A stretch of 64,000 nt of DNA, taken from assembly GCF_024628725.1 (NCBI RefSeq), contig NZ_CP102409.1:1397001-1461000 (forward strand), read 5' to 3'. Shown here piece by piece: positions 10,594-46,537 of the stretch; within the stretch, counting starts at the first letter, position 1, and every line of letters begins with the position of its first letter. Below the pieces are notes generated by a model. The model saw only the letters and a program-made list of their open reading frames with translations. It had not been told where the DNA came from and did not search any database. Origin of the DNA: Ruegeria sp. YS9. GTDB lineage: Bacteria > Pseudomonadota > Alphaproteobacteria > Rhodobacterales > Rhodobacteraceae. The position numbers and the translations under genes were made by a program.

Positions 10594-11475
10594 ATGTCCA
10601 AAGCAGAACAGCGCGCGCAGATGATCAACGGCACGGGCTTTATCGCGGCACTGGATCAAAGCGGCGGATCAACCCCGAAAGCGCTTGCGTTGTATGGTGT
10701 CGAGGCATCCGACTACAACTCAGACGAAGAGATGTTCGGTGAAATCCAGAAGATGCGTGCCCGCATCATTCTGGCCGACGATTTCACAAAGGACAAAGTG
10801 ATTGGTGCAATCCTGTTCGAACGTACCCTGGGCGAAGAGATCGAAGGCCGCAAGGTTGCCGATTACCTGTGGTCGGTCAAAGGTATCGTGCCTTTCCTGA
10901 AGATCGACAAAGGCTTGGAAGAACAGGCAAATGGCGTTCAGATGATGAAACCGATCCCCGGTCTGGCCGAGACCCTGGCCAAGGCCGATGGTGTGTTCGG
11001 CACCAAGGAACGCTCGGTCATTCACGAAGCGAATGCCGACGGCATCGCGGCGGTGGTTGCGCAACAGTTCGACGTCGCCCGCGAAGTCACCGATGCCGGT
11101 ATGGTTCCGATCGTGGAACCCGAAGTGAACATCCATTCGGAAACCAAGGCCGAAGCAGAAGACATCCTGAAGGCTGAAATCCTCAAAAACCTCGATCAAC
11201 TGGCCGAGGGTCAGGAAGTGATGCTGAAGCTGACGATCCCGACAAAGGCAAACCTGTATGACGCGCTGGCAGACCACCCGCGGGTATTGCGGGTTGTGGC
11301 CCTGTCGGGCGGTTATTCGACGGAAGAAGCCTGCGACCTGTTGAGCCGAAACGGCAAAATGATCGCATCCTTCTCGCGGGCTTTGACCGAAGGTCTGTCG
11401 AAGCAGCAGTCAGATGCAGAATTCAACGCGGCCTTGGGTGGCAACATCGACAAGATTTACAAAGCCTCGGTCTGA
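10594..11475 (+). CDS. fda: Class I fructose-bisphosphate aldolase
   Basis: A 293-aa glycolytic/gluconeogenic enzyme cleaving fructose 1,6-bisphosphate to two triose phosphates by a Schiff-base mechanism. The sequence shows FIAALDQSGGSTPKAL near the N-terminus, FLKIDKGLEE (about 110), PIVEPEVNI (about 173) and VMLKLTIP (about 210), which holds the probable Schiff-base Lys, and ALSGGYS near the C-terminus. The gene is monocistronic with its own terminator. The symbol is given by family; fbaB is used elsewhere. The ATG at 10594 lies after GGGAAAAC and matches the family N-terminus; an upstream extension of the frame does not. Confidence 0.92.
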   Translation: MSKAEQRAQMINGTGFIAALDQSGGSTPKALALYGVEASDYNSDEEMFGEIQKMRARIILADDFTKDKVIGAILFERTLGEEIEGRKVADYLWSVKGIVPFLKIDKGLEEQANGVQMMKPIPGLAETLAKADGVFGTKERSVIHEANADGIAAVVAQQFDVAREVTDAGMVPIVEPEVNIHSETKAEAEDILKAEILKNLDQLAEGQEVMLKLTIPTKANLYDALADHPRVLRVVALSGGYSTEEACDLLSRNGKMIASFSRALTEGLSKQQSDAEFNAALGGNIDKIYKASV

Positions 11476-31832: not shown

Positions 31833-34193
31833 ATGACTGACAGGCGAGGGGCGGGCACATCCTGCGGGCAGCAAATGCCAACAAACAATATTTTGTGGCA
31901 GGCGCTAGCGGTTCTTTTCCTTTTTGTTGCTGCAAGCTTAATGACTTTTCCGCATGCAGCACAGGCGCAAAACTTTACGATCAATTCCTTTGACGTTGAG
32001 GGCAATCGCCGGATCGAAACCGGTACGATCATCGCCCGAACGGGAATCGAACCTGGCCAGACCGTAACTGCGGGCCAACTCAATGATGCCTATCAGCGTT
32101 TGCTTGACAGTGGTGTATTTGAAACAGTCGAACTGACGCCGCGCGGCTCGACGCTGGTCATCACGGTTCAGGAATATCCGACGATCAACCAGATCAGCAT
32201 CGAGGGCAACGCCCGTGTCAAGGACGACGTTCTGCTGGACGTCATCGAATCTCAGCCGCGCCGCGTCTTTACCCCTCAGGTGGCCGAGTCTGACGCCGAT
32301 ATGATTGCTGAAGTGTACTCAGCCCAAGGCCGTGTTGCCGCGACCGTGATCCCTCGGATTATCCGCCGCAGCGACAACCGGGTTGATCTGGTTTTTGAAG
32401 TGGCCGAAGGCACGACCATCGAGGTGGAACGTGTCAGCTTTGTCGGCAACCGTGCCTTTTCCGACCGACGCTTGCGCCGCGTTCTGGAAACCAAGCAGGC
32501 AACGTTTCTGCGGACGTTCTTCCGGAACGACACGTTCATCGGCGATCGTATCGAGTTCGACAAGCAGGTCATCCGGGACTTCTACCTGTCACGAGGCTAT
32601 GTCGACTTCCGCGTGAACAGCGCCAACGTCGAATTTACCCGTGAACGGGATGCGTTTTTCCTGGTGATGAATGTAACCGAAGGCCAGAAATTCTCGTTCG
32701 GTAAGATCACGACCGTCAGTGAGATTCCGGGCGTGGATCCGGCCCCTTATCAGGACGCGTTGAAGATCAAGCCCGGCGTAACCTATACACCGTCTCTGGT
32801 TGAAAACTCCATTACACGCCAGGAACGTCTGGGTCTGAAACAAGGCGTGGATTTCCTTCGGGTGGAACCACGTGTCACACGCAATGACCGCGATCTGACT
32901 TTGGATATCGAATTTGTCCTGACAAAAGGTCCTCGGATTTTTGTCGAGCGGATCGATATTGAAGGCAACACAACCACCCTGGACCGGGTGATCCGCCGTC
33001 AGTTCGACACCGTCGAAGGAGACCCGTTCAATCCCCGCGAAATCCGTCAGGCCGCCGAGCGCATCAATGCCCTGGGTTTCTTCGCTGTCGCGGAAGTCGA
33101 ACCGCGCGAAGGATCTTCGCCCAGCCAAGTCATTCTGGATGTGGACGTTGAAGAACAACCTACCGGCTCGCTGAGCCTTGGCGGCAGCTACTCGGTTACG
33201 GACGGTTTCGGGATTGCGGTCGGTCTGAACGAATCCAACTTCCTGGGTCGTGGCCAGAACCTCGGTGTGTCGATCTCGACCGCGCAGGACTCGGAACAAT
33301 ACACGCTCAGCTTCACCGAGCCTTACCTGCTGGGCCGCAAGCTGCGCTTTGACATTGGTCTGGGGCTGTCGGCCACCAATTCCGGGTTTGCAAGTTACGA
33401 CACAAGCAGTCTTTTCTTTGCACCACAGCTGACCTATGCGATTGGTGAATTGTCGGCGTTGCGGCTCCGTTATCGCTGGGACCGCAGCGAGATGACGCAG
33501 CAGGACAACGAAGTTAACGGTGCGGTGATTGCTTCTGAAATCGCGCAGGGCAAACGGACGTCCAGCTCTTTGGGACTGTCGTACATTTATGACAGCCGTC
33601 TCGGCGGTCTGGACCCCAATACCGGCTTTCTGTTCGAGATTGGCGTTGATGCCGCCGGACTTGGTGGGGACAACAAATACTTCAAGACCACGGCGCGTGG
33701 TATCGCGCAAACCCGAGTATGGAACGAAGAGGTGGTGCTTCGGGCAACGATGGAGCTGGGCGCTCTGCACTGGCGCGGAAACGATTTCAGCCGCACTGTG
33801 GACCGGTTCGTGCTGGGGCCCAATACCTTCCGGGGTTTCGAACCAGCGGGTATCGGACCGCGTGACCTGTCCAACGGTCAGGATGACGCAATCGGGGGCA
33901 ACTATTACTGGGTTGCCCGGTTCGAAACCGATTTCCCGCTAGGACTGCCCGAGGAATTGGGGCTGCGTGGTGGCCTGTTCTATGATGTCGGCAACCTCTA
34001 CAACATCGACAACGTCAATACGGCAGGTTCAACTATTGTAGGTGCAAACGGATCGATCCGCCACGTGATCGGCATTTCGGTGCTGTGGGAAACTCCGTTC
34101 GGGCCGTTGCAGTTCAACTTTTCGCAGCCTCTCAAGAAAGAATCTTTCGACAAGGAGCAGAACTTTGACTTTACGATCCAGGCCCGGTTCTGA
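31833..34193 (+). CDS. bamA: Outer-membrane protein assembly factor BamA
   Basis: A 786-aa outer-membrane insertase. A signal peptide ends at about HAAQAQ (residues 43-48). Five POTRA domains follow (about 49-440; examples INQISIEGNARVKDDVLLDVI and IFVERIDIEGNTTTLDRVIRRQF, each a POTRA strand pattern). The C-terminal barrel contains the lid-loop motif VLGPNTFRGFEPAGIGPRD (VRGF-type) and ends in an aromatic beta signal FDFTIQARF. Start: ATG 31833, or the ATG at 31875 that would give a more usual signal-peptide length. Confidence 0.95.
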   Translation: MTDRRGAGTSCGQQMPTNNILWQALAVLFLFVAASLMTFPHAAQAQNFTINSFDVEGNRRIETGTIIARTGIEPGQTVTAGQLNDAYQRLLDSGVFETVELTPRGSTLVITVQEYPTINQISIEGNARVKDDVLLDVIESQPRRVFTPQVAESDADMIAEVYSAQGRVAATVIPRIIRRSDNRVDLVFEVAEGTTIEVERVSFVGNRAFSDRRLRRVLETKQATFLRTFFRNDTFIGDRIEFDKQVIRDFYLSRGYVDFRVNSANVEFTRERDAFFLVMNVTEGQKFSFGKITTVSEIPGVDPAPYQDALKIKPGVTYTPSLVENSITRQERLGLKQGVDFLRVEPRVTRNDRDLTLDIEFVLTKGPRIFVERIDIEGNTTTLDRVIRRQFDTVEGDPFNPREIRQAAERINALGFFAVAEVEPREGSSPSQVILDVDVEEQPTGSLSLGGSYSVTDGFGIAVGLNESNFLGRGQNLGVSISTAQDSEQYTLSFTEPYLLGRKLRFDIGLGLSATNSGFASYDTSSLFFAPQLTYAIGELSALRLRYRWDRSEMTQQDNEVNGAVIASEIAQGKRTSSSLGLSYIYDSRLGGLDPNTGFLFEIGVDAAGLGGDNKYFKTTARGIAQTRVWNEEVVLRATMELGALHWRGNDFSRTVDRFVLGPNTFRGFEPAGIGPRDLSNGQDDAIGGNYYWVARFETDFPLGLPEELGLRGGLFYDVGNLYNIDNVNTAGSTIVGANGSIRHVIGISVLWETPFGPLQFNFSQPLKKESFDKEQNFDFTIQARF

Positions 34194-46117: not shown

Positions 46118-46144
46118 GCAGGAAGTTCCAAAAAGATCACAAAT

Positions 46145-46159
46145 GTTCTCAAAAAGTTC
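46145..46159 (+). promoter_or_regulatory. LexA (SOS) box
   Basis: GTTCTCAAAAAGTTC is an exact GTTC-N7-GTTC, the LexA site established for Rhodobacter, Paracoccus and Caulobacter. It lies 28 bases after recG and 71 bases before the start of the small membrane protein at 46230. Confidence 0.75.
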
Positions 46160-46229
46160 TTTACCGACTCGGGTAAATATGAGAACAAAAGGTCAACAAA
46201 GGATTAAAACTCTGACCGGAGGTGACCCT

Positions 46230-46352
46230 ATGCTGACCCAGATCAAGACCGTATTCAGCCGCTCGCAATCGACAATCCTACAGGATGCCGTGGGCGTGAT
46301 GTCTCTGGTCGTGATCTTGATGGTCGCCCTGCACCTTCCGGTTGGATTCTAA
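46230..46352 (+). CDS. 40-aa single-span membrane protein with a LexA box
   Basis: Encodes MLTQIKTVFSRSQSTILQDA, then the hydrophobic span VGVMSLVVILMVALHLPV and a two-residue tail. GGAGGTGACCCT gives a good ribosome binding site. The Lys/Arg-containing N-terminus predicts a cytoplasmic N-terminal side. The frame extends upstream to 46143 but lacks a ribosome binding site there. It is followed by a strong terminator, so it is a separate transcription unit. The LexA box suggests induction by DNA damage. I do not recognise it; the SOS-induced division inhibitor SidA of Caulobacter is a comparable small inner-membrane protein. Confidence 0.7.
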   Translation: MLTQIKTVFSRSQSTILQDAVGVMSLVVILMVALHLPVGF

Positions 46353-46498
46353 GCCTTTCTGCCTGCGATCTCGTGCCGAAAAAACCGCGCTGTCATCCCC
46401 ATTTCAGTCAAGGGTGACCTGCCTGTCCCAAACCCCTTGAGGGGCCATGCCTCGGCCCCGTGCGGTAATCCGGACCCCACGCGAGACACGCAATGCCT

Positions 46499-46537
46499 GC
46501 CGCCGCCCTTTCGCCCGGAAGGTGCGGCGGCTTTTTT
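46499..46537 (+). terminator. Terminator of the small SOS gene
   Basis: Perfect 8-bp stem GCCGCCGC/GCGGCGGC with a 17-base loop, then six T. It ends on the stop codon of the convergent marC gene. The 147 bases between the small gene and this hairpin show no other feature. Confidence 0.75.

Follow-up and report, generated by a model that had tools for sequence, protein, structure and literature searches.

Among the described systems that come closest to the locus reported here are small inhibitors of cell division from Caulobacter and from Gram-positive bacteria. In Caulobacter, SidA acts on FtsW and DidA on FtsN (PMC4211646), and cells deleted for lexA grow into filaments because of sidA (PMC12700426). 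Among the Gram-positive inhibitors, YneA binds FtsW via its span, and a LysM domain is part of both YneA and ChiZ (PMC13396833). For the Rhodobacteraceae, the accessible portions of the open-access literature name no SOS division inhibitor and do not describe a halt of division after DNA damage, marine roseobacters included. A search of the open-access literature likewise found nothing joining recG, a transmembrane small protein and an sRNA in Rhodobacter. In-silico LexA sites have been placed at lexA, recA, dprA and other genes in a study of Dinoroseobacter shibae, the word recG being absent from its main text (PMC6473078).

Here, we describe a short gene found just downstream of recG in Ruegeria sp. 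YS9, within a stretch of 64,000 nucleotides that was analysed as a whole and is called the window hereafter (NZ_CP102409.1, positions 1,397,001 to 1,461,000). The locus is, almost certainly, a real peptide gene; it lies behind two LexA-type boxes and is followed by a conserved structured RNA (Table 1). The best reading of the arrangement, drawn by analogy and held with evenly divided confidence, is that of an SOS unit whose peptide would pause septation, much as SidA and YneA do. An earlier note on this DNA had pointed out an exact GTTC-N7-GTTC site ahead of a 40-codon gene with a strong ribosome binding site, and both are confirmed at the positions listed in Table 1; the single transmembrane span that it proposed agrees with a hydrophobic stretch at residues 20-37 and with one helix in the AlphaFold2 model. 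The terminator that it gave to the gene is real, though it lies about 150 nt past the stop codon, beyond the segment to which it had been assigned. The remark that annotation would usually miss such a gene holds in part: several public records include it under the label hypothetical protein. Neither the second operator nor the conserved structured RNA of the 3' UTR was mentioned in that note.

Table 1. Features of the locus downstream of recG, in coordinates of the 64-kb window
Feature	Position	Strand	Basis and remarks
recG, 696 aa	44027..46117	+	ORF list; conserved upstream neighbour
GTTC-like units, 20 and 10 bp ahead of box 1	46125..46138	+	GTTC at 46125, GATC at 46135 here
LexA box 1 (predicted), GTTC-N7-GTTC, letters GTTCTCAAAAAGTTC	46145..46159	+	exact match; matrix 16.0; 117/117 loci
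LexA-like box 2, + strand reading GAAC-N7-CAAC, one half imperfect	46183..46197	-	matrix 12.6; 107/117 loci
Shine-Dalgarno GGAGG	46218..46222	+	window letters; SD-like word in 111/117 loci
40-aa single-span membrane peptide gene, TAA included	46230..46352	+	ORF list, profile, pN/pS
Branched structured RNA (3' UTR), YUGYC motifs in loops	46355..46499	+	covariance models, pair counts, folding z
Intrinsic terminator: stem-loop 46500-46530, U6 at 46532-46537	46500..46537	+	sequence, folding

The gene belongs to one family of bacteria and is widespread within it. The peptide is present in all 37 genomes of the genus, while 24 genomes from other families gave no match; a single-sequence query matches 206 of 295 Rhodobacteraceae genomes, a profile raises this to 253 of the 295 (252 of 294 sampled genera), and a protein database search returns 876 matches. 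A class-level search matched 10 of 385 genomes, five of them Rhodobacteraceae (E <1e-13), and the other five, weak matches (E 5e-4 to 0.01) within frames of 290-969 aa, were taken as chance, leaving no convincing member outside the Rhodobacteraceae among these 385 genomes. For comparison of the loci, a set of 117 was assembled, 37 from the search output and 80 picked by hand from listed matches, such that the most divergent, unlisted members are under-represented. In this set recG lies directly 5' of the peptide gene in 114 of the 117 loci. The convergent marC of the window is present in just 6 of the 37 loci that have 1.5 kb of downstream DNA, which argues that the structured RNA travels with the peptide gene and not with marC. 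A longer, 69-aa reading from 46143 was rejected, an in-frame upstream start being possible in only 51 of the 117 loci.

A scan for the promoter pattern, made independently of the peptide, found at least 119 stretches, and in 78 of 80 loci examined the peptide frame follows within 200 nt, the remaining two lying at the end of the available sequence; among the matches listed, recG is just upstream in 79 of 80. The two sets share genomes (for instance L236/L406, L249/L369 and L285/L401) and are thus not independent. Moreover, 20 family genomes negative by the profile were inspected at recG, whose end is readable in 16. A LexA-like site (score of at least 13.9) and, as judged by eye, a hydrophobic frame of 36-50 aa follow recG directly in 11 of these 16, so that the true spread exceeds that seen by the profile and the peptide must diverge fast; neither box nor peptide is found in the other five, which counts against the division-inhibitor reading. 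Outside the family, 25 recG loci contained the box only in two, the hydrophobic frame only in two and both in none, and an arrangement common to other families was rejected on this ground. The conservation of frame and LexA box between genera, proposed in the earlier note as a check and run in that form, is therefore found for both, and the comparison strongly backs its description of a LexA-controlled single-span small protein, the control being read from the promoter letters.

It is very probable that LexA controls the peptide gene. Taken alone, box 1 does no better than chance in the window (three exact GTTC-N7-GTTC words against 2.27 expected), and the weight thus rests on its conservation; the whole genome contains 194 such sites against 115 for a reversed control pattern. 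An exact GTTCN7GTTC lies at most 200 nt upstream of the peptide gene in every one of the 117 loci, from 117 genomes, which rules out a chance box, and composition shuffles carry an exact box on either strand in 0.6% of 2340 cases. Within the genus the strict spacing is kept in 30 of 31, the spacer of L006 being shorter by one base. The opposed box 2 stands at a fixed distance: 107 of the 117 loci carry its GAAC at position +38 relative to box 1. The scores in Table 1 derive from a LexA matrix whose only training sites were family promoters of lexA (39 strict boxes, contributed by 28 of 30 loci) and recA (25 strict boxes, by 25 of 30 loci), 64 boxes in all. Left out one at a time, these training sites reach 11.4-22.8 (median 19.5); background words have their 99.99th percentile at 12.7, just above box 2 at 12.6. 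A score of 12 or more is found in 109 of 117 promoters and in none of 117 coding control stretches. Counting against the assignment, box 1 has an A before its second GTTC, where T is usual (52 of 64 training boxes). Box 2, for its part, resembles the downstream box of recA. About 97% of the SOS promoters of Caulobacter have a single box (PMC12700426), and the two boxes here, in contrast, suggest a product that needs silence.

Several further observations concern the same motif. In the genus of locus L071, box 2 is a perfect GAACN7GAAC, identical over its 15 bases to the recA box of another genus (L164). Further GTTC units lie 10 bp upstream of box 1 in 105 of the 117 loci and 20 bp upstream in 32, outside the 11-bp LexA register. 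The window holds two more exact GTTCN7GTTC words, at 11116-11130 and 32038-32052, both on the minus strand and both lacking the T before the second GTTC. In the genome of the strain itself, 42 sites, drawn from the first 100 of the 194 listed, were scored with the matrix and 20 were read; some of these 20 precede uvrA, a uvrD/pcrA-like helicase gene, an MmcB-like repair gene and an ImuA-like gene, the last a call below its family cut-off. However, an open frame longer than 120 aa overlaps 15 of these 20 sites, which indicates that the lexA/recA matrix lacks specificity when used alone. Among the scored sites, the LexA-type word with the highest score (L502:1601-1615) has a betaine-aldehyde dehydrogenase gene about 110 nt away, which is unexpected for an SOS site, and a 176-aa frame at L504:1480-2007 matches only the last part of the error-prone polymerase DnaE2, with a high-scoring LexA-type word inside it or at its start.

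The peptide itself is under clear constraint within the genus, where pN/pS is 0.215 across 31 genes and 64% of the differences fall at third positions; across the family (96 genes) the ratio rises to 0.57, a fast divergence that counts against the division-inhibitor reading. Residues 20-37 are hydrophobic, with a mean hydropathy of 2.1 in the 111 rows that carry the D..G pattern. In the 96 members of exactly 40 aa, counted with no filter for that pattern, D19 and G22 are invariant (96/96), L34 and P37 are each kept in 95, L26 in 92 and L30 in 89, and an acidic or basic residue occurs inside 20-37 in one row. Position 6 is K or R in 84 of the 96 and R11 is found in 77, and these positive residues ahead of the span predict an orientation with the N terminus inside and the C terminus outside. 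That the conserved residues share one helical face is only suggestive: a stripe test gives p 0.009 at 100 degrees, 0.053 when the choice of angle is allowed for and 0.06 for residues 20-36 alone. AlphaFold2 models one helix over residues 2-39 (mean pLDDT 79). Pfam and NCBIfam return no match above cut-off, with no Pfam domain in any of the 31 members scanned, and the best PHROG match (0.0029), to a family of unknown function, is seen in 3 of 31 members. In the L073 ortholog, a TGA after LHL leaves a peptide of 36 aa that lacks the conserved proline end.

The 3' UTR is a real structured RNA, a conclusion that we hold as close to certain. Among 118 UTRs (the 117 loci and the window), CTGCC recurs in 113, CTGCCTG in 96, CTGTCC in 98 and TGTCCC in 99, and the first YTGCC begins a median of 6 nt after the stop codon. 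When 20 UTRs were folded singly, most took, by eye, one shape in which a long closing stem is followed by hairpins (L218 differs), and CUGUCCC, CUGCCUGUCC and UGCCUC occupy the hairpin loops. Folding is more stable than in dinucleotide shuffles, with a mean z of -2.94 and values below -1.5 in 89% of the 82 UTRs of suitable length (out of 91 trimmed, terminator excluded); for the UTR of the window, terminator included, z is -4.45. The YUGYC motif occurs 4.59 times per RNA against 1.02 in shuffles, and 71% of the motifs are unpaired as compared with 43% of all bases. No Rfam 15 covariance model matches between 45900 and 46900 at E up to 1.

Since RNAalifold, given a 65-row sequence alignment, recovered nothing but the terminator, we turned to a model that takes structure into account. 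In an unfitted alignment of 12 sequences, 18 cells are double-changed against 5.7 when shuffled, with none of 500 shuffles reaching 18, and the covariation is 0.187 against 0.116 shuffled and at most 0.079 slid, the test being favoured in that the structure was drawn from the same sequences. The covariance model made from these 12 (R1) matches 55 of 81 sources, five of which had served for training, and 42 of another 44, including seven training rows and the window's own copy, and none of 78 control sources (339 kb, including the 16 profile-negative recG loci). In the fitted alignment of 55 rows, all 31 modelled pairs have changed on both sides, with 286 such cells against 81 shuffled, and the covariation reaches 0.402, compared with 0.135 in shuffles and no more than 0.075 when slid. 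A second model (R2), built from the 55 fitted rows, matches 24 of 50 sources, five being training rows, and one of the 16 profile-negative loci (L299), with no match in 82 control sources (324 kb, mostly shared with the R1 controls). Among the promoter-scan loci it matches 58 of 73 (from the 80), each time once, downstream and on the strand of the promoter. Overall, R1 or R2 matches 105 of the 117 loci, one of the 12 misses (L208) having been scored with R1 only. A second open reading frame within the 3' UTR was set aside given the compensatory base changes. A simple scan finds a terminator candidate in 105 of the 117 loci and also in 20 of 60 shuffled controls, and it thus carries little weight.

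In the proposed working of the unit, the two LexA operators would flank the promoter and hold it tightly off, and DNA damage is predicted, from the sequence, to bring about LexA cleavage and the release of transcription. One LexA-repressed transcript would then give two outputs, the membrane peptide and the RNA. With its N terminus predicted to be cytoplasmic and its C terminus just outside, the peptide may dock the conserved face of its uncharged single span on a membrane component of the machinery that builds the septal wall, for example FtsW, and division would be held until repair is done. Such an action on the FtsW/FtsI/FtsN complex via the span is proposed by analogy with SidA, DidA and YneA; division inhibition by the 40-aa peptide, as the earlier note had suggested, stays an analogy for which the balance of probability is level. 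The folded RNA would most likely act as a regulatory RNA, or be processed to one, via its exposed C-rich loops. At the RNA end, the unit could operate in trans through the loops or in cis on the messenger, and we give action in trans an even chance. More tentatively, and as less likely than not, the transcript could be an SOS checkpoint RNA with two outputs that goes back to the ancestor of the Rhodobacteraceae, in which the peptide would clamp FtsW-type septal synthesis as the C-rich multi-loop RNA is released, division arrest and regulation being switched together; the RNA may in that case rewire gene expression, either through base pairing to G-rich ribosome-binding regions or as a sponge for a partner.

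Other explanations have to be weighed against a peptide that pauses septation. The peptide could be an SOS-induced membrane toxin of the TisB/DinQ kind, lowering the membrane potential and promoting dormancy and leaving the divisome alone, for which a small, single-span product under tight, predicted SOS control would be well suited. Known toxins of this kind, however, come paired with antisense RNAs, and the span here is charged in only one of 96 rows and bears a strong, side-chain-specific constraint across the family. Although DinQ of E. coli offers a precedent as an SOS-regulated toxic single-span inner-membrane peptide (PMC3567139), we consider the toxin reading improbable. Similar reserve applies to the idea that the unit chiefly yields the structured RNA upon SOS induction, to act as a regulatory RNA or as a sponge, with the peptide a minor or regulatory passenger. 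The covariation in 31 of 31 pairs, the excess of exposed YUGYC motifs (4.59 against 1.02 shuffled) and the model matches in 105 of 117 loci would all be in keeping with it, but the peptide shows clear coding constraint, and box and frame are kept in 11 of the 16 profile-negative loci whereas only L299 among the 16 matches the RNA model, so that the peptide persists where the RNA is unrecognisable. An RNA in the leading role is thus, in our judgement, unlikely.

The folded RNA might also be no more than an element acting in cis, to make the messenger stable or to set its timing, with the peptide serving another membrane process such as transport, envelope repair or a gene transfer agent programme. 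An RNA that begins a few bases past the stop codon and shares its terminator with the gene would be placed as expected of such an element, and LexA affects gene-transfer-agent control in Rhodobacter capsulatus (PMC6363796, PMC9638019); yet the repeated, exposed C-rich motif exceeds what stability needs and nothing ties the peptide to another process, and we rate this account, too, as improbable. Finally, a regulator other than LexA, for instance an OmpR-type activator on a GTTC array at 10-11 bp steps, could control the gene, as the additional units at -10 and -20, off the LexA register, might suggest. This is very unlikely, given that the 11-bp GTTC pair is present in all 117 loci, that box 2 resembles the recA downstream box and that the genome shows no enrichment of the three-unit array, with 45 sites against 40 for the control when at most one mismatch is allowed. 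Two named regulators were rejected: the TGA-N8-TGA direct repeat that forms the CenR motif (PMC9275681) occurs in just 2 of 117 promoter segments, and TTAAN7TTAA of CtrA in just one.

The reading of an SOS unit with a septation-pausing peptide concerns a single gene, which most of the sampled family keeps at the same conserved locus and whose promoter lends itself to quick testing. If that reading is true, the peptide would provide a natural handle of minimal size on septal wall synthesis, and if the RNA acts alone, it would represent a regulatory RNA, absent from Rfam, that is built into an SOS checkpoint gene.

Overall, the locus shares features with several known systems and coincides with none of those compared here. 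TisB and DinQ of E. coli are tiny SOS-controlled membrane peptides, as the present one is predicted to be, although the span here is uncharged and conserved. SgrS/SgrT, a dual-function small RNA, and CcaF1/CcsR, a peptide-plus-RNA locus of Rhodobacter, likewise combine a short peptide gene with a structured RNA whose loops are C-rich and which has an intrinsic terminator; the predicted SOS control and the YUGYC motif set the present locus apart. The loop motif of the CcsR (cuckoo) RNA, CCUCCUCCC, is found in none of the 91 trimmed UTRs. The Gram-positive SOS inhibitors YneA, ChiZ and SosA are LexA-controlled, single-span and act late in division (PMC13396833), but YneA and ChiZ carry their LysM domain outside, while the 40-aa peptide has no such domain, leaves just a few residues outside and matches no Pfam domain; the lack of LysM counts against the division-inhibitor reading. 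SidA (29 aa, Caulobacter) and DidA (71 aa) are, like the peptide, very small single-span inner-membrane proteins, and both are DNA-damage-induced inhibitors; SidA lies under a GTTCN7GTTC LexA box, as here, whereas DidA is LexA-independent, unlike the control predicted here (PMC4211646, PMC12700426). The locus context of SidA differs, and the likeness proposed here is one of size, span and promoter; moreover, the accessible text of these two sources mentions no structured 3' RNA for SidA or DidA, in contrast to the conserved one found here. Set beside the SOS-induced single-span inhibitors, the locus is therefore unusual in its second operator and its conserved RNA.
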